Shown one piece after another: positions 6,676-30,134 of a stretch of 33,499 nucleotides of DNA. The stretch covers positions 2,459,493 to 2,492,991 of the forward strand of contig CP070708.1 of NCBI GenBank assembly GCA_020350285.1. Reading direction: 5' to 3'. The translations under genes and the position numbers were made by a program. This DNA is from Anaerolineaceae bacterium (GTDB lineage: Bacteria; Chloroflexota; Anaerolineae; Anaerolineales; E44-bin32). The notes under the pieces were generated by a model. The model searched no databases and had not been told where the DNA came from. It worked only from the letters and a program-made list of their open reading frames with translations. Each line of letters begins with the position of its first letter. Position 1 is the stretch's first letter.

Positions 6676-7128
6676 CTATCCATTTCCTCTCGTCAGCAGA
6701 GGCCCCAGGGTCTCCCCCATGGCCACCAGTCCCAGGGCGGTGAATGGCGTCACGCCCCAAGAGAAGCCCATTGCCAGAAACCAACGCTCCGTGGATGAGA
6801 CCTGTGTGAAGATCACCACGGAGAACAACAGATGCAACCAGAGGGTTAAGAGGGGAAATGCGACCAGACCATTGAGGGTGAAAGCTGCGATGTATCGTGT
6901 CTTCCGCTTAGGCCCACGTCTTTGTCTGTACACCCAACGACGTGTCAGCACCGCACACATCGACAGACAATACGCCAACAACACGAGGGTCAGTACGGTC
7001 AGCAGCCCGCGGTCGGGGCGCCATCCGAAGAGCGGGTTCTTCTCCGAGAGATGACTCAGGATGGCCAGGATGTTTGCCGCCAGACTCACCATCCCGGTGA
7101 CGATAACGAAGATGTTGGACCGTTTCAT
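6676..7128 (-). CDS. Small integral membrane protein, unrecognised
   Basis: This is a 150-residue protein from the ATG at 7128, with AAGG about 10 bases upstream. Four hydrophobic segments are visible at about residues 5-25, 42-64, 83-103 and 118-140. A basic loop RRWVYRQRRGPKRKTR sits after the second, which suggests a cytoplasmic loop. No family was recognised. It lies 25 bases after the polymerase stop on the same strand and so is probably the last gene of that operon. Whether it works with the polymerase is unknown. Its 3' end abuts the family C repeat array. Confidence 0.72.
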   Translation of the reverse strand: MKRSNIFVIVTGMVSLAANILAILSHLSEKNPLFGWRPDRGLLTVLTLVLLAYCLSMCAVLTRRWVYRQRRGPKRKTRYIAAFTLNGLVAFPLLTLWLHLLFSVVIFTQVSSTERWFLAMGFSWGVTPFTALGLVAMGETLGPLLTRGNG

Positions 7129-7153
7129 GGGGGATACCTTCTCTTGAACTGAC

Positions 7154-9544
7154 TCAACTAGTTGATACGAAGCTGGGATCTGGGATCAGGGATTGGGGAT
7201 AAAGGAACGAGTGTTGAGGCCAAATCCTGATCCCAGATCCCTGATCCCTAATCCCTGAGGCTCGAGCTTGTTCCAGTAAGGGTGTCCCAATATCCGCGCC
7301 GGGCGGAGGGAGCGTCCCCGGTGGTCCCCAATACCCGGCGCCCCCCAGCAGCCAGATCTCGAGCGCGCTCTGATTCACGCCGACCGGAACGAGCACACTC
7401 TCGGCCGCGCGCAGGAACAACTGGGTGTAGGCCTCCCGATCGTAGGGGATCTCACCCTCGACCAGTTCCCAGGCTCGGACCTTCTCTGGCCCGGGCACAA
7501 GCAGAAAAGGAAGACGCTCGCCGGGGCTGAGCCTCACGCCCTTCTCGCCCAACTGGCGCGCCGCTCGGGCGGCGGCGGTACAGACAACGTATTCTTCCAG
7601 TTGGCGGGACAGACGGTGCGTGACGACCAATTCTCGGACCGGGACCTGGCCGGTGCGCAACGCGCGCAGCCGCTCACCAGCGTAGGCAACCGCTTGCGGC
7701 ACGACGGCACGGAACCCGGCTGCGTCGTGTCCCTGCGCGAGGATGTTGAGCATCTCCAGTTGTGTTTGTTTAATGAAGGGAGGGGTGTCGCGGCGCCGGG
7801 CTTCGATACCGCGGATCTTGAGACTGCCGTCCTCGAATGCGCCGAAGTAGCGATTGGCGACGGTGACCCGAGGTTCGGTCCTTGAGGGTAGGAAGGCCAG
7901 CCAGCGATAGATCCCCTCGAGCCCGATCTGCAGCCCGGTCTCGGCGCGAATCTCGCCCAACAGTGCCTCGTAATCCGGGCGACTTCGGGCGCCGGGCTTG
8001 TGGATCCACAGGCCGTCGACGTATAGGTGGAGCACGCGAAATCCGCGCTCCTCCACCAACTCCTTGGTCCGGAGCAGCACCTCCCGCCCGTAGGCGTTGA
8101 CCGCCTCGTGGGCCTCGATGCGACCGAAGCGTGCGTTCTTGTAGCCCAGGTAGCCGAAGCAGGTCACCAACAACCACTTGTGAGCCGAGTAGCGCCGACG
8201 ATAGGCCTCTTTGCGGGGGTCGTCCTCGGGCAACTCGCCGATCAGAGCCTTGTAGCGGTGGCGCTTCTCGAGCAGCGGCGCGAGCGTGTCCGGCACCAAG
8301 CCCCGACGGTGATGGCAGACGGGCGTGCCCAGCTCGGGTACGGGTTTGCCTGGGCAGCACGTTGCGCCGACCGTCTCGGGCGAGATGTTGAAATGCACCA
8401 TGATGCTCGGGTACATGGCGCTGAAGTCGAGCTCAGCGACGTGCTCGTGCAGGCCGGCGATCGGGGTGTAGACCAAGCCGCCTTTGTCGGCCAGGAGCAG
8501 ATCGAGCCCGGTCTTGAGTGTTTCCGGATGGCGCTTCTGCCATGGGACCATGACCCCGCGGCGCAGGGCGGTGGCCACCTGCATGGCGCTGATCCCGGTG
8601 CCGGTGGAGACGCGGGCCGCGGTTTGGGCCGGCAGGCCGGTGAGACGTGCGATCTCGAGGATCCCATCCATACCGTAATCGTTGGCCAGGAAGGCGTTCT
8701 GGCAGTCGAGATGCCAGCGCCCGAAGAGCAGATGCTGTTCGTTGCGGAAGACCACCCGCCCATAGGAGAAGTAGGAGGTGGCCGGTTTTTGCTGTACCTG
8801 TCTGGCCCGATCACGGTTGAGCGGCAGGGGGATCCCGTAGTGCTGTGAGAGCTGGAGCAGACGGGGCAGGATGTAATTGTCGCCGTAAGTGCTGATCAGC
8901 ACGTCGGGGTCGTAGAGCTCGATCAGGTGCCTCATGGTGAGCAGCAACTGGCGGCCCCGCGCCCGTGGCAGACACAGTGTGCGTCCTTCGATCTCGACCA
9001 GCAGATCGCCGCGATGGCCGCGTCCTGGGTCCCTCATCTCACCGGTCATCCGCATCGCCATGACGCGCAGTGGCGGCAGCTTGTAGTCGATCTCCCATGG
9101 GGAGTCGAGGGCCTCGATGCGTTCGATGAGCCCGTCGCGGTGATCGACGTGGCAGTAAGCCAGCGGAAAAACGCCACGTGCTAAGGCGTAGCGTTGAGGC
9201 AAGGGGATGTCGGCATCGTAGTAAGTCAGATCGGGGCGGTAATCGGCGGTCTGCCGGAACAGGCGCGTCAGCATCGAGGGGATTCGCACGCTGACCTCGA
9301 GCACCTCTAAGGGGCGGTCGAGGAACAGGTCCAGGCGCTCGGTTCGGCGCAGCGTCACCGGTGCGTGCCGGGCGCGCAGCATCTGGCAGACGGCGCGTAA
9401 CTCCTCGCGCGGTCCGTGTGCATAAAAGGAAGGCGCAAAGGTGTCGCGCAGGGCATACGATTGGCCCTGCTCGTCGATCAGCCAGACCGTCATCCCATCG
9501 CCGGAGGGATAGACGTCGAACAACCAGCCAAAGGTGGACGGCAT
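7154..9544 (-). CDS. Family-B DNA polymerase with damaged active-site motifs (PolB2-like)
   Basis: This is a 796-residue protein. The ATG at 9544 has GGAGGG seven bases upstream. The N-terminal and exonuclease-like region covers residues 1-340 and includes TYYDADIPLPQRYAL, typical of family B. Motif A is intact: DFSAMYPSIM, Asp373. Motif B reads KWLLVTCFG (Lys456), where the family has KxxxNSxYG. Motif C reads YVDGLW (Asp510) where YxDTD is expected, so the second, metal-binding Asp is Leu512. Exonuclease I shows AMRMTGE (~163-169) without the Asp-x-Glu pair, and exonuclease II shows TYGDNYILPRL with Ile225 where Asp is expected. Proofreading is probably lost and polymerisation is doubtful. 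The last ~30 residues are encoded by the family B repeat. It follows the small helical gene by three bases. The block looks richer in G+C than its surroundings. Confidence 0.9.
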   Translation of the reverse strand: MPSTFGWLFDVYPSGDGMTVWLIDEQGQSYALRDTFAPSFYAHGPREELRAVCQMLRARHAPVTLRRTERLDLFLDRPLEVLEVSVRIPSMLTRLFRQTADYRPDLTYYDADIPLPQRYALARGVFPLAYCHVDHRDGLIERIEALDSPWEIDYKLPPLRVMAMRMTGEMRDPGRGHRGDLLVEIEGRTLCLPRARGRQLLLTMRHLIELYDPDVLISTYGDNYILPRLLQLSQHYGIPLPLNRDRARQVQQKPATSYFSYGRVVFRNEQHLLFGRWHLDCQNAFLANDYGMDGILEIARLTGLPAQTAARVSTGTGISAMQVATALRRGVMVPWQKRHPETLKTGLDLLLADKGGLVYTPIAGLHEHVAELDFSAMYPSIMVHFNISPETVGATCCPGKPVPELGTPVCHHRRGLVPDTLAPLLEKRHRYKALIGELPEDDPRKEAYRRRYSAHKWLLVTCFGYLGYKNARFGRIEAHEAVNAYGREVLLRTKELVEERGFRVLHLYVDGLWIHKPGARSRPDYEALLGEIRAETGLQIGLEGIYRWLAFLPSRTEPRVTVANRYFGAFEDGSLKIRGIEARRRDTPPFIKQTQLEMLNILAQGHDAAGFRAVVPQAVAYAGERLRALRTGQVPVRELVVTHRLSRQLEEYVVCTAAARAARQLGEKGVRLSPGERLPFLLVPGPEKVRAWELVEGEIPYDREAYTQLFLRAAESVLVPVGVNQSALEIWLLGGAGYWGPPGTLPPPGADIGTPLLEQARASGIRDQGSGIRIWPQHSFLYPQSLIPDPSFVSTS
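7172..7258. repeat. Repeat family B: inverted arrays of 7-bp units (GGGATNN)
   Basis: The left arm (7172-7200) is a run of GGGATNN heptads. The right arm (7224-7258) is the reverse complement (ATCCCNN heptads). They are separated by ~23 unique bases, so the whole can fold as a long imperfect hairpin. It lies inside the 3' end of the polymerase gene and encodes residues such as SGIRDQGSGIR and LIPDPS. Confidence 0.8.
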
Positions 9545-9547
9545 AAT

Positions 9548-9931
9548 CTAGCCCTCCGGTCGGGGAGCGTCCCGGTCCGGCAGGGGCAATCCGCGCCGGT
9601 CTCTTTCGCCGGGCCCTTCACACCGGCGGGCAGCGTCTGCCGGGCGATGACCCAAAGAGGGTGACGGGTGAATTGCCCCTGCCTCGAGGGCCGCGAGCTG
9701 TCGCCGCAGACGCAGCACCTCCTTGTGCTGCTCGAGCAGCATGGCCAACAACATGACCTCAAAAGGCAGCAGGTGGGAGGCGTAGGCCGCGGCGGCCAAG
9801 TGGTGGCGCGAGCCGGCCAGAAGCTCGTCGAGCACCTGCTGGTCCTCGCGGCGCAGCGCACGACGAAAGCGTGCCAGCGACTGCTGCTCCTGAAGGAAGG
9901 CTTGGGTGATGGACGGGAGGGTACGACCCAT
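9548..9931 (-). CDS. Small helical protein of the PolB cassette
   Basis: This is a 127-residue protein from the ATG at 9931, with AAGGAG eight bases upstream. The stop is three bases before the polymerase start, so the two are almost certainly translated together. Residues 5-85 are predicted as three to four long amphipathic helices rich in Leu, Gln, Arg and Ala (LQEQQSLARFRRALRR, LEQHKEVLRLRRQLAALEAG), with coiled-coil character at the end. The last 40 residues are Pro/Arg-rich and look disordered. I recognise no family. The tight coupling suggests an accessory subunit or adaptor of the polymerase; that is inference from position. Confidence 0.75.
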   Translation of the reverse strand: MGRTLPSITQAFLQEQQSLARFRRALRREDQQVLDELLAGSRHHLAAAAYASHLLPFEVMLLAMLLEQHKEVLRLRRQLAALEAGAIHPSPSLGHRPADAARRCEGPGERDRRGLPLPDRDAPRPEG

Positions 9932-9951
9932 GGTGGACTCCTTTTCGTTTG

Positions 9952-10049
9952 TGGCACCAGGGCACTTAGGCGCCTCGGCGCCTGGGTGTCAGCGGGATCA
10001 TAGTCTTGCCACCATGGTGCCCCGGTGCCTGAGTGCCTAGGCGCCTACG
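9952..10049 (-). repeat. Repeat family D, copy 1 (minus orientation)
   Basis: It consists of 8-bp units close to GGCACCNN on both sides of a unique core that reads, on the minus strand, close to GGTGGCAAGACTATGATCC. The same core occurs in plus orientation at 10908-10988, so it is a true dispersed element and not just low complexity. It lies between the RecA-like gene and the small helical gene. Confidence 0.7.
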
Positions 10050-10053
10050 TTTC

Positions 10054-10653
10054 CTAGAATAGTCGCGGTTGCTCGACTCCGGCCCCCTCCGGGGCGCGCA
10101 GCAACCATGCGGCGTCGGCGGCGACCTGCAACCGATCCAGTAGCTCCCATCGTTCTTTGACCAGTGCACGCGGCTCGCGTGCCCCGACGATCACCGGCCC
10201 GATGGAGGCCAGCCGCTTGAGATGGGTGATCGTGGTCGTCAGCAGACGCTCGGTGTCGCGCAGCGGCACGCTCTCATCGTAGAAGGTGGTCAACATATCG
10301 AGGACGAAGAGCGGCTCGGGCTCCGCCGGGGCGCTCTCGATCAACTCGGCTAACTGGAAGCAGGTGAAGGCGCGTGAGAGATGGATGCGCCCGAGAATGG
10401 TTCTCGGATGGCTGCTCAAGCGCCGCGACAGTCGAGCGACGAAGTAGCCGTCGAAACGGTTGCCCCCGTCGAAGACGCGCACGGACGAGCCGCGGGCGGC
10501 GAGGGCCGTGAGCATCGCCAACAAGGTTCGTGTCGGTGTGTTCGTGCCCCAGAACAGCGCCAAACGCGGCTGGCGGAGTTCCTCCAGCAGCGCCGAGTCG
10601 TTGGGCAGCAGATGCGGATCAGCGGGGAGGACCGGGACCAGTTCGTGTTGCAT
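10054..10653 (-). CDS. RecA-fold ATPase-like protein with degenerate Walker A
   Basis: This is a 199-residue protein from the ATG at 10653, with GAGAGG eight bases upstream. In-frame codons further upstream lack a ribosome site. The fold pattern matches the RecA/RadA core: LALFWGTNTPTRTLL at 31-45 in the P-loop position, VRVFDGGNRFDGYFVARL at 58-75, then GRIHLSRAFTCFQLAELI and a Walker B-like strand PLFVLDML (Asp119). The P-loop should read GxxxxGK(S/T); here Gly36 is followed by TNTPTRT, with Thr41 for Gly and Arg42 for Lys, so ATP hydrolysis is doubtful. It is first gene of the polymerase cassette, in the role ImuA-like proteins play for mutagenic polymerases. It is flanked by inverted copies of repeat D. 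The polymerase link is inference from synteny. Confidence 0.78.
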   Translation of the reverse strand: MQHELVPVLPADPHLLPNDSALLEELRQPRLALFWGTNTPTRTLLAMLTALAARGSSVRVFDGGNRFDGYFVARLSRRLSSHPRTILGRIHLSRAFTCFQLAELIESAPAEPEPLFVLDMLTTFYDESVPLRDTERLLTTTITHLKRLASIGPVIVGAREPRALVKERWELLDRLQVAADAAWLLRAPEGAGVEQPRLF

Positions 10654-10738
10654 GATCAAACCTCTCTGGTGCAAGCGGGAGAGAGGTATCATGCCGAACA
10701 TTCCACGGGCGGACCGATCGTCTCCCACTGCACACGAA

Positions 10739-10762
10739 ATTATGGGATAGAACAAATGTGCT
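10739..10762 (-). promoter_or_regulatory. Degenerate SOS-like site and possible -10 upstream of the PolB cassette
   Basis: On the minus strand the sequence AGCACATTTGTTCT (10762-10749) matches the GAAC-N4-GTTC palindrome at seven of eight core positions. Four bases later is CATAAT (10744-10739), a five-of-six -10 box. No good -35 box precedes it. The ATG of the RecA-like gene is ~85 bases downstream. Compare the perfect site at 19777-19790. Confidence 0.35.
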
Positions 10763-10840
10763 AATACTCTACCGCGGGGAGGGAAAAAGGCAATCCCACC
10801 GAGGGAGGAATCGCGCGGGTGATTACGGATCACCCCAGTG

Positions 10841-11019
10841 GGGGATTAGGGATCAGGAATTGGGGACTGGGGATCTGGGATCAGGGAATAGGGATCAGAG
10901 GCTGATCGGGCACCAAGGCACTTAGGCACCGGGGCACCAAGGTGGCAAGGCTGTAATCCTGGAGATATCCCTGTGCCCAGGCGCCTTACTGATCCCTAAT
11001 CTCCAATCCCTGATCCCTT
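10841..11019. repeat. Repeat family B arrays enclosing family D copy 2
   Basis: This is a composite element. GGGATNN heptads (10841-10898) lead into a family D copy (10908-10988), followed by inverted ATCCCNN heptads (10989-11019). The right part is the 3' end of the MFS gene and encodes TRDQGLEIRDQ before the stop at 10986. With the upstream site at 10739-10762, it accounts for most of the 332-base gap between the RecA-like and MFS genes. Confidence 0.75.
10908..10988 (+). repeat. Repeat family D, copy 2 (plus orientation)
   Basis: GGCACCNN units surround a core close to GGTGGCAAGGCTGTAATCC, homologous to the minus-strand core of the copy at 9952-10049. The two copies therefore form an inverted pair around the RecA-like gene. 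The distal end GCCCAGGCGCC is also shared. Confidence 0.7.
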
Positions 11020-19147: not shown

Positions 19148-19176
19148 GTGATGGGGCGGGACAACCTTGCCTCTAC
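19148..19176. repeat. Repeat family A, copy 6 (degenerate) supplying a stop codon
   Basis: GTGATGGGGCGGG and CCTTGCCTCTAC are the worn arms of a family A palindrome. The TAG stop of the LuxR-type gene (19175-19173) is the TAG of the outer GTAGAGG arm, so the gene ends within the repeat. Confidence 0.5.
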
Positions 19177-19607
19177 TGCGAGTGGGATTCTACCTCCCAC
19201 CAGCGGACGCCCAGGTCGAGCAGCAGCAACCGCAGGTCCGCCTTGCTGTGCAAGGTAAATTTCTCCAGCACGCGCCGCACGTGCGTCTTGACCGTCTCGG
19301 GGGAGATGATCAACGTCTCGGCGATTTGCTGGTTGGTATAGCCGCGGGCCGTTAGCCGAGCCACCTCCTGCTCGCGCGGGGTGAGGAACGCCAGGGCGGC
19401 CTCGGCGCGCGCCCGCAGCATTTCCCTCTCCAACCCACGAGAGAGCAAGTCGGCAGCCAGCCTCTCCGGCGACTGGGCTCGGGCGCGCGCCGCCAGTCGC
19501 AGTTGAGCAGCGAGCTCATGATCGAGCTCGAAGGTCAACCGTCCGTTGGTCGAGGATGGGCCCTCCGACCGAACGCTTTCAGGACGGAACCAGCGACGGA
19601 ACCACAC
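19173..19607 (-). CDS. LuxR-type HTH regulator with an N-terminal ribbon-helix-helix-like region
   Basis: This is a 144-residue protein. The start is GTG at 19607 with AGGAGG five bases upstream. Residues 23-60 (GRLTFELDHELAAQLRLAARARAQSPERLAADLLSRGLERE) have the strand-helix-helix pattern of ribbon-helix-helix proteins. Residues ~70-135 are a LuxR/GerE DNA-binding domain: LTPREQEVARLTARGYTNQQIAETLIISPETVKTHVRRVLEKFTLHSKADL. No receiver domain is present, so it is not a normal response regulator. It is driven by a perfect consensus promoter holding a perfect SOS-type palindrome (19770-19798). Its targets are unknown. An approximately 155-base leader precedes it. Confidence 0.85.
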   Translation of the reverse strand: MWFRRWFRPESVRSEGPSSTNGRLTFELDHELAAQLRLAARARAQSPERLAADLLSRGLEREMLRARAEAALAFLTPREQEVARLTARGYTNQQIAETLIISPETVKTHVRRVLEKFTLHSKADLRLLLLDLGVRWWEVESHSQ

Positions 19608-19769: not shown

Positions 19770-19798
19770 ATTATATAGAACATATGTTCTGTTGTCAA
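19770..19798 (-). promoter_or_regulatory. Perfect consensus promoter containing a perfect GAAC-N4-GTTC palindrome
   Basis: On the minus strand TTGACA (19793-19798) and TATAAT (19770-19775) are separated by exactly 17 bases. The spacer is ACAGAACATATGTTCTA, which includes the 14-bp perfect palindrome AGAACATATGTTCT (19777-19790). This is the LexA (SOS) box form known from Gram-positive bacteria. A repressor here would block polymerase entry completely. The LuxR-type gene begins ~155 bases downstream. Confidence 0.8.
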
Positions 19799-28940: not shown

Positions 28941-30083
28941 ATGGGTCCCCTTAAAGGTGTGAAAGTCCTTGAGATTGCGAGCATAGGACCCGGCCCCTTC
29001 GCGGCCATGATGTTATCGGATATGGGCGCCGAGGTGCTTAGAATCGACCGGATCGTAGGAGAGAGTGAGGCCGATCTAGATAAGGCAGATAAGGACATCC
29101 TCAACCGTGGGCGCAAGAGCGTCAGCGTTGATCTGAAGAACCCCGCAGGGGTGGAGGTGATCCTTAGACTGGTTGAAGGGTCCGATGCCCTCATCGAGGG
29201 TTTCCGCCCCGGGGTCATGGAACGCCTCGGTCTGGGACCCGAGGTATGCCTCAAGCGCAATCCATCCCTCATATACGGACGCGTGACCGGCTGGGGTCAA
29301 GAAGGGCCTCTCTCACGGGCTGCGGGCCATGACATCAATTACATCGCCCTGGCAGGCGTGTTGTCCGCGATCGGTCGGTTCGATCAACCACCGGTACCAC
29401 CCCTCAACCTCCTCGGCGACTTCGGTGGGGGCGGTATGTTCTTGGCATTTGGTGTGGTTTGCGCGCTGGTTGAGCGGACCACAAGTGGCGAGGGTCAGGT
29501 TGTGGACGCTGCTATGGTGGACGGCGCGGCGATCTTGATGACCATGATCCATGGTCTCCGAGCCATGGGTGCTTGGAACCTGGAGCGAGGCACAAATCTA
29601 CTGGATACCGGAGCACCCTTTTACGAGACCTACGAATGTCGAGACGGCGAGTACATCTCCGTCGGTTCACTTGAACCCCAGTTCTACGATTTACTCATTA
29701 AGCTCACCGGGTTGGAAGGTGAGAAGCTTCCCGATCAGATGGACCGAGCGGCTTGGCCCGCACTAAAGGTTCGCATGGCACAGATCTTCAAATCCAAGAC
29801 TCGTGAGGAGTGGTGTGAATTGATGCAGGGCACAGATGTGTGCTTTGCACCTGTGCTGAACATGGACGAAGCCCACGAGCATCCTCATATGAAACATCGG
29901 GACACCTTTATTGAGATCTCCGACATCACACAACCAGCCCCAGCACCCCGCTTCAGCCGAACCACTCCTGAGGTTTCCCGCCCGCCTTCTCGCCCAGGTC
30001 AGCATACCGAGGAGGCCCTCAGCGAGTGGGGTTTCTCAAGGGAGGAGATCGCGGATCTTCGAGAGCGGAAGGCTGTGGCGTGA
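28941..30083 (+). CDS. Alpha-methylacyl-CoA racemase (CaiB/BaiF CoA-transferase family III)
   Basis: This is a 380-residue protein from the ATG at 28941 with AGGAGG six bases upstream. The start LKGVKVLEIASIGPGPFAAMMLSDMGAEVLRID is the family III signature. Instead of the transferase aspartate, the racemase residues are present: His130 in AAGHDINY, Asp160 in NLLGDFGGGG and Glu245 in VGSLEPQFY. These align with His126, Asp156 and Glu241 of the mycobacterial racemase. The expected reaction is inversion of the alpha carbon of 2-methylacyl-CoA esters, allowing branched-chain fatty acids to enter beta-oxidation. The stop codon falls in the first unit of heptad repeat C. Confidence 0.93.
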   Translation: MGPLKGVKVLEIASIGPGPFAAMMLSDMGAEVLRIDRIVGESEADLDKADKDILNRGRKSVSVDLKNPAGVEVILRLVEGSDALIEGFRPGVMERLGLGPEVCLKRNPSLIYGRVTGWGQEGPLSRAAGHDINYIALAGVLSAIGRFDQPPVPPLNLLGDFGGGGMFLAFGVVCALVERTTSGEGQVVDAAMVDGAAILMTMIHGLRAMGAWNLERGTNLLDTGAPFYETYECRDGEYISVGSLEPQFYDLLIKLTGLEGEKLPDQMDRAAWPALKVRMAQIFKSKTREEWCELMQGTDVCFAPVLNMDEAHEHPHMKHRDTFIEISDITQPAPAPRFSRTTPEVSRPPSRPGQHTEEALSEWGFSREEIADLRERKAVA

Positions 30084-30134
30084 AACGTGATGCGTGAGGC
30101 GTGAAACGTGAAGCGTGAAACGTGATGTGTGAGG
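30079..30134. repeat. Repeat family C: eight 7-bp units (CGTGANN)
   Basis: Eight consecutive heptads. Seven begin CGTGA and the last begins TGTGA. The TGA in the first unit (30081-30083) is the stop codon of the racemase gene. The family matches the array at 6606-6675. Confidence 0.8.

Follow-up and report, generated by a model that had tools for sequence, protein, structure and literature searches.

An iRadA-PPB2-PolB2 operon behind a LexA-type box in an Anaerolineaceae bacterium: a likely SOS-induced translesion complex

The closest described system is the PolB2 mutasome (Timinskas et al. 2025, PMC11791011), which, in the accessible text of that paper, consists of PolB2, iRadA and a PPB2 trimer, encoded in bacteria in the order iRadA-PPB2-PolB2. 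It has an MGRT arm, a RadA relative without ATPase residues, an iRadA C-terminal beta-clamp motif, an inactive exonuclease and a replaced first Asp of DxD, and the operon described here is alike in all of these; the clamp-binding motif lies on iRadA or on PolB2, seldom on both. Sulfolobus Dpo2/PolB2 (accessible text of PMC8764526) shares the HxxxD form of motif C and the loss of exonuclease residues with the polymerase described here. It is an archaeal, assayed enzyme, described as the smallest PolB2 and lacking most of the proofreading residues, whereas the polymerase here is bacterial and known from its sequence; Dpo2 was reported to extend primers, including mismatched and lesion-bearing termini, to have no exonuclease and to be damage-inducible in expression. 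E. coli Pol V (UmuD'2C-RecA) and the ImuA-ImuB-DnaE2 cassettes resemble the predicted complex as SOS-controlled bypass polymerases that have a partner from the RecA family and likely dock on the clamp, but their polymerases belong to the Y or C family, their small subunits are different, and RecA or ImuA stands in place of a RadA relative (in part from PMC11791011 and PMC12926913). E. coli Pol II (group G1) is unlike it in being a single subunit with a working exonuclease (PMC11791011, PMC12926913).

The window analysed here is a stretch of 33,499 nucleotides of contig CP070708.1 (assembly GCA_020350285.1, positions 2,459,493 to 2,492,991), and neither tRNA genes nor Rfam matches were found anywhere in it. 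A sequence-only reading of this DNA had described four minus-strand genes, which are real and correctly placed:

10054..10653, minus strand: iRadA, RadA/Rad51 fold without the Walker A motif, 199 aa; the frame is open from a GTG at 10833
9548..9931, minus strand: PPB2, small protein, 127 aa, assigned beside iRadA by similarity
7154..9544, minus strand: PolB2 (group G2), family-B DNA polymerase, 796 aa
6676..7128, minus strand: predicted membrane protein of 150 aa, 25 bases downstream of polB2
7154..10653, minus strand: the iRadA-PPB2-PolB2 operon, in the gene order iRadA, then PPB2, then PolB2

We are confident, short of certainty, that the three-gene operon represents the bacterial branch of the PolB2 family known from archaea and encodes a likely SOS-induced translesion complex, predicted to extend primers in lesion bypass. 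The operon type is already known as the PolB2 mutasome, and membership here is well supported. The earlier interpretation was right to see a PolB2-like enzyme accompanied by a degraded RecA-like protein and a small one, and to suggest that they act in DNA repair or translesion synthesis; its non-catalytic reading of the polymerase and its ImuA parallel do not hold.

After removal of 9 duplicates, the 62 fetched loci gave 53 distinct ones, with L033 being the window's own. The neighbouring trio iRadA-PPB2-PolB2 lies on the same strand and in this order in 47 of the 53 (own included); in L061 the trio is present with an extra gene ahead of polB2, bringing the loci with the trio to 48. The remaining five are cut by contig ends, with 605 bases or fewer upstream. 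The proposed check, whether the polymerase occurs without its neighbours, found no such case: the trio was present wherever upstream DNA sufficed. The membrane protein, which had been grouped with the cassette, lies outside this conserved unit. As a candidate fourth partner it occurs in just 6 of the 53 loci, own included; it has three hydrophobic stretches (Kyte-Doolittle) and no Pfam match above the cut-off.

PPB2 matches no Pfam family above the cut-off either, and by similarity it adjoins iRadA in every locus with sufficient upstream DNA. Its N-terminus carries the motif defined in the available text of PMC11791011:

9920..9931, minus strand: MGRT N-terminal motif of PPB2

PPB2 begins with MGRT at 45 of the 47 loci, ours among them, and the other two have MGKT and MGHT. 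Haloarchaeal PPB2 counterparts were found by alignment, and at two of three haloarchaeal loci iRadA-like and MGRT/VGRT proteins lie upstream, as judged by alignment without an E-value.

The iRadA profile has archaeal RadA as its nearest solved structures, and the matched chains are RadA, Dmc1 and Rad51. The 50 matches listed comprise RadA, Rad51, Dmc1 and Rad51 paralogues, with no bacterial RecA among the matches listed, and a P-loop was found in none of 47 iRadA proteins. These results bear on the possibility that the operon is a bacterial cassette of the ImuA-ImuB-DnaE2 type with a swapped polymerase. The general plan is indeed alike, namely a degraded RecA-family protein, a special polymerase and an SOS box; yet the RecA-like member matches RadA, Dmc1 and Rad51 chains, the polymerase is of family B, and archaea possess a trio with MGRT/VGRT small proteins. 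Moreover, no Pfam match to a polymerase of the Y family (as ImuB) or the C family (as DnaE2) was found in the operon proteins or in the next upstream gene, which encodes an MFS protein. We regard this origin as extremely unlikely, and the parallel drawn earlier is an analogy only, because the partner's profile is nearest to archaeal RadA among solved structures and the polymerase belongs to family B.

The C-terminus of iRadA may connect the complex to the beta clamp of the bacterium, with the clamp role taken from the accessible text of PMC11791011:

10057..10071, minus strand: QPRLF, candidate beta-clamp binding motif, the last five residues of iRadA

In 32 of 47 iRadA proteins, own included, the C-terminal 30 aa contain a clamp-type pattern, Qxx[LM][FLYW]. 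Simple clamp patterns match 5 of 53 PolB2 frames, a few of which are cut by contig ends, and both proteins carry a match at only three loci (L019, L020 and L022).

For the polymerase, the residues of interest are as follows:

8483..8488, minus strand: D353-K354, candidate D(K/R) motif of PolB2; D353 in 30/30, K or R at 354 in 19/30
8426..8428, minus strand: codon of D373, the metal-binding Asp of motif A, kept in 30/30 aligned relatives
8015..8029, minus strand: motif C, H506-L-Y-V-D510, the HxxxD form of PolB2, from alignment to 4flt and haloarchaeal PolB2

Motif C had been read as YVDGLW, lacking a needed Asp. This was a misalignment, and to that extent the earlier observation, sound as to the genes, fails: the true motif is HLYVD, and in the alignment to 4flt and haloarchaeal PolB2, D510 falls on the Asp of YxDTD that comes second and binds metal. 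Tyr508 stands in place of the first one, and the YxD Tyr is replaced too. E. coli Pol II has a normal DTD. Among the 30 aligned sequences, H506 is kept in 29, and Y508 and D510 are kept in all. The three haloarchaeal homologues share HxxxD and the motif-B stretch with PolB2 here, and HxxxD is the motif given for PolB2 in the available text of PMC8764526. The first Asp of DxD is Tyr here (30/30), in contrast to Ile in Sulfolobus islandicus (PMC11791011, accessible text).

Is this enzyme dead? A catalytically inactive PolB2, serving only as a structural subunit, goes back to a 2008 proposal for the archaeal family (available part of PMC2527604), and in this operon the replaced first DTD Asp and YxD Tyr and the lost Exo I and Exo II Asp would fit such a role. 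We nevertheless reject it as the main reading and consider it very unlikely, since all 30 sequences keep Asp at the positions of D373 and D510 and an archaeal homologue is reported to be active. The suggested choice between other ligands and a non-catalytic polymerase does not follow, because the active site keeps both Asp aligned with metal ligands, and the alignment places a normal second ligand at D510. Although it looks broken, the polymerase retains Asp at both positions used for metal binding by its relatives. Since archaeal PolB2 actively extends primers in translesion synthesis (Feng et al. 2022), catalysis by the bacterial PolB2 here is likely by analogy; no assay of any bacterial PolB2 was found in the accessible literature.

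Judged from Exo I and Exo II, the motifs that could be placed in the alignment, the exonuclease active site is lost, with the Exo I Asp column holding Asp in 1 of 30 sequences and the Exo II Asp column an acid in none of 30. The Exo I Glu column holds Glu in 12 of 30, and our own E144 is among them, a point against full exonuclease loss. From its position just before the palm, D353-K354 probably corresponds to the D(K/R) motif of PolB2, and the limited conservation at K354 counts against the fit. As D353 is invariant, we considered it as a replacement carboxylate near the palm; this candidate was set aside because the residue matches the D(K/R) motif, which the accessible text of PMC11791011 assigns to PPB2 binding. 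The PolB2 (group G2) assignment rests on motifs and best matches. NCBIfam NF004416 scores 383.7 bits against PolB2, below its curated cut-off of 516, and this model does not name PolB2 in its title, is not used by the papers to define the group and gives sub-cut-off matches in 5 of 14 control genomes.

The operon is preceded by a candidate operator:

10748..10763, minus strand: LexA (SOS) box TAGCACATTTGTTCTA, 16 bases, with 96 bases from its 12-base core to the iRadA ATG

The box has one mismatch to GAACN4GTTC and has the same operator form as the recA box in its own genome. The form TAGCACN4GTTCTA occurs at four sites in the 3.4 Mb genome (one for the reversed-pattern control), namely at the iRadA operon, the recA start, a TIGR03916-like radical SAM gene and a glyoxalase-like gene; AGAACN4GTTCT occurs at five, versus two for the reversed pattern. 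A perfect GAACN4GTTC lies upstream of lexA in 25 of 26 genomes (own included; 0.1 in shuffles), which are not independent because some are close kin; this test used 26 of 30 loci, with L108-L111 left out as weak matches with longer or shorter frames. The lexA frame of our own genome has 225 residues.

Ahead of iRadA, the search covered 46 of 47 loci, with L014 (14 bases upstream) set aside; L061, which is not one of the 47, was left out too, its iRadA lying outside the first stretch. At 24 of the 46 there is a box with one mismatch or none, compared with 4.5 in shuffled upstream DNA (0.15 for perfect boxes). The near group (n = 14, own included), separated by a gap in iRadA score of at least 251 versus at most 112 bits and named after the boxes had been seen, has it at 14 of 14 loci, versus 2.4 in random windows, which contain coding DNA; iRadA and lexA starts were picked by script. 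The distant loci have it at 10 of 32 (8 perfect), where two controls imply about 3.7, a modest enrichment. Because just these 10 distant loci carry the box, SOS control of the operon is supported, at the level of sequence, only for the near group. In a motif-free palindrome count, AGAAC-N4-GTTCT ranks first in both sets (8/14 near, 6/32 distant).

The box could instead be a chance occurrence or the site of another regulator, leaving the operon outside LexA control; its own mismatch, its absence from 22 of 32 distant loci and the failure to find a sigma-70-like promoter in 10600-10990, beside it, would agree with this. Given the presence of a box at every near locus, the first rank of AGAAC-N4-GTTCT in both sets and the same operator form at recA, we judge this very unlikely. 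LexA control would also set this operon apart in one way: the PolB2 mutasome is reported with lexA gene enrichment, while here LexA boxes are present and a lexA gene, sought as an adjoining member, was found in none of the 62 fetched loci, whose flanks span roughly 1.5 to 8 kb or are cut. LexA boxes ahead of the operon are not mentioned in the accessible text of PMC11791011, and a LexA site ahead of an iRadA-PPB2-PolB2 operon appears to be unreported so far in the literature.

PolB2 is not the sole candidate for bypass in this genome, which holds one gene of the Y family along with two DnaE frames (1313 and 1093 aa); thus PolB2 need not be the main bypass polymerase. The idea that recA is missing or replaced was dropped: its start and its end were both found, at two separate places and next to N gaps, which makes a break in the scaffold at recA likely.

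We propose the following mechanism. DNA damage would inactivate LexA, which would leave its box at 10748-10763, and iRadA, PPB2 and PolB2 would then be produced together. According to published models, iRadA may dock on PolB2 in the manner of neighbouring Rad51 subunits, and the PPB2 trimer may put one MGRT arm close to the active site. The QPRLF tail of iRadA would tether the complex to the bacterial beta clamp, and PolB2, without proofreading, would extend mismatched or lesion-ended primers. With somewhat less confidence than in the identity of the operon, we think it probable that a PolB2 mutasome from archaea has been rewired in an Anaerolineales-related family, through a rare, recA-form LexA operator and beta-clamp docking via the tail of a dead RadA, into an SOS mutator of Chloroflexota. 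Few papers on LexA sites in Chloroflexota were found. The 16-base operator shared with recA provides a testable link from this polymerase complex, which is archaeal-derived and likely mutagenic, to the SOS response of bacteria.

The four minus-strand genes that the sequence-only reading had placed together are all present in the window, with intergenic gaps of 122, 3 and 25 bases along the run, and a LexA box precedes them:

10763-10748, minus strand, LexA box of the operon (TAGCACATTTGTTCTA), 96 bases from its core to the iRadA ATG
10653-10054, minus strand, iRadA, 199 aa, whose open frame extends back to a GTG at 10833
9931-9548, minus strand, PPB2, 127 aa
9544-7154, minus strand, PolB2, 796 aa
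7128-6676, minus strand, predicted membrane protein, 150 aa

Whether the trio is conserved, a question left by the same reading, can be answered from the 53 distinct polB2 loci (own included): iRadA and PPB2 both lie upstream of polB2 on the same strand in 47, and a further locus, L061, has both partners with about 1.3 kb inserted ahead of polB2. The remaining five (L030, L046, L049, L053 and L060) each have at most 605 bases of upstream DNA. At L054, a single frame carries iRadA and PPB2, a fusion form also on record in the available text of the 2025 paper (Timinskas et al., PMC11791011). Six of the 53 loci have the membrane protein. A polB2 match occurs in 32 of the 61 genomes searched, namely the own genome and 60 relatives, whose names include Anaerolineales and Chloroflexi bacterium. 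In the PolB2 proteins of L061 and L062, an insertion of approximately 80 to 100 residues past motif A follows the position of residue 397 in the window protein. Short tandem repeats of a 7-base element lie at window 7220-7258, 10841-10898 and 30077-30125; one of them reaches the polB2 3' end and codes for part of a low-confidence C-terminal tail (residues 741-796, pLDDT <50). The source assembly is a single scaffold of 3.4 Mb with a completeness of 80.5 per cent, in which the window occupies 2,459,493-2,492,991, and there are N gaps of about 100 bases within the fetched stretches of this scaffold.

We searched the lexA genes of 26 genomes, the own one among them, over as much as 250 bases of upstream DNA together with 30 bases of gene. 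A perfect GAAC-N4-GTTC site occurs at 25 of these 26 genes, where shuffles give a mean of 0.1; the lexA of the own genome has such a site upstream. At 14 of the 15 lexA genes of the same family there is, in addition, a site with a GCAC half (printed as GTGC). Ahead of iRadA, a site with at most one mismatch is found at 24 of 46 loci, against 4.5 in shuffles and 6.1 in random windows, and a perfect site at 16 of 46, against 0.15 and 1.5, respectively. All 14 of the closest loci reach this one-mismatch level (2.4 in random windows), and 12 of them match the full TAG[A/C]AC-N4-GTTCTA; among the 32 more distant loci, 10 reach the one-mismatch level, 8 of these with a perfect site. When palindromes are counted with no motif assumed, AGAAC-N4-GTTCT ranks first in the near and far sets alike.

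The form of the operon's own box, TAGCACN4GTTCTA, has four sites in the own genome, against one for the reversed-pattern control:

10763-10748, minus strand, ahead of the iRadA-PPB2-PolB2 operon
about 50 bases ahead of a 37-residue piece matching the RecA N-terminus
L117 3509, preceding a TIGR03916-like DNA-repair radical SAM protein (259 bits against a cut-off of 343.5)
L118 1842, preceding a glyoxalase-like gene

The 37-residue piece scores E 2.8e-13 against a chain of repeated RecA copies and only 0.33 to 0.98 against single RecA chains, and no NCBIfam family matched it. The recA ends lie about 0.77 Mb apart in this genome (L116 1603-1938 and L069 12598-13011), in both cases next to an N gap of about 100 bases, and their separation is likely a scaffold fault. 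The window also contains a perfect SOS-type box, AGAACATATGTTCT, at 19777-19790, within a minus-strand TTGACA-N17-TATAAT; the next longer minus-strand frame, 19173-19607, encodes a LuxR-type HTH protein (Pfam GerE). This box is among five AGAACN4GTTCT sites in the own genome, against two for the reversed-pattern control. Elsewhere in the genome, two SOS-type boxes 22 bases apart stand where an FtsK/SpoIIIE-like frame, possibly an SOS target, begins (L076 2979-3014, G000:C1:2644478-2644513).

The gene set, the motifs, the predicted folds and the operator are observed, and on them we propose the following mechanism. DNA damage would lift LexA repression, and the trio would then be co-expressed. 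iRadA, PPB2 and PolB2 would assemble as in the published model, the QPRLF tail of iRadA may dock on the clamp, and the PolB2 complex would extend distorted primer ends without proofreading. The sequence-only reading had likened the operon to the ImuA-ImuB-DnaE2 cassettes; the likeness holds for the way of working, as it does for Pol V, but the operon is a member of neither system, because its polymerase belongs to family B and its partner is RadA-like. In the own genome, a second DnaE frame (1093 aa, G000:C1:1063832-1064602) lies beside a 1313-aa DnaE and may be DnaE2, although only one Y-family gene was found.

The surprise that the sequence-only reading saw in the polymerase rests on a misaligned motif. 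The operon is of an ordinary kind, because a 2014 paper had already described the gene set iRadA-PPB2-PolB2 and a model of the complex followed in 2025. The available text of the 2014 paper (PMC4104785) and of PMC11791011 places lexA genes next to bacterial polB2, whereas none was found within the limited flanks of our 62 fetched polB2 loci. That text makes no mention of LexA boxes at the polB2 operon, nor do titles and abstracts on PolB2 with LexA, Chloroflexi with LexA or Chloroflexota with PolB2, subscription papers and supplements aside. It is the LexA operator that adds something beyond the known gene set.
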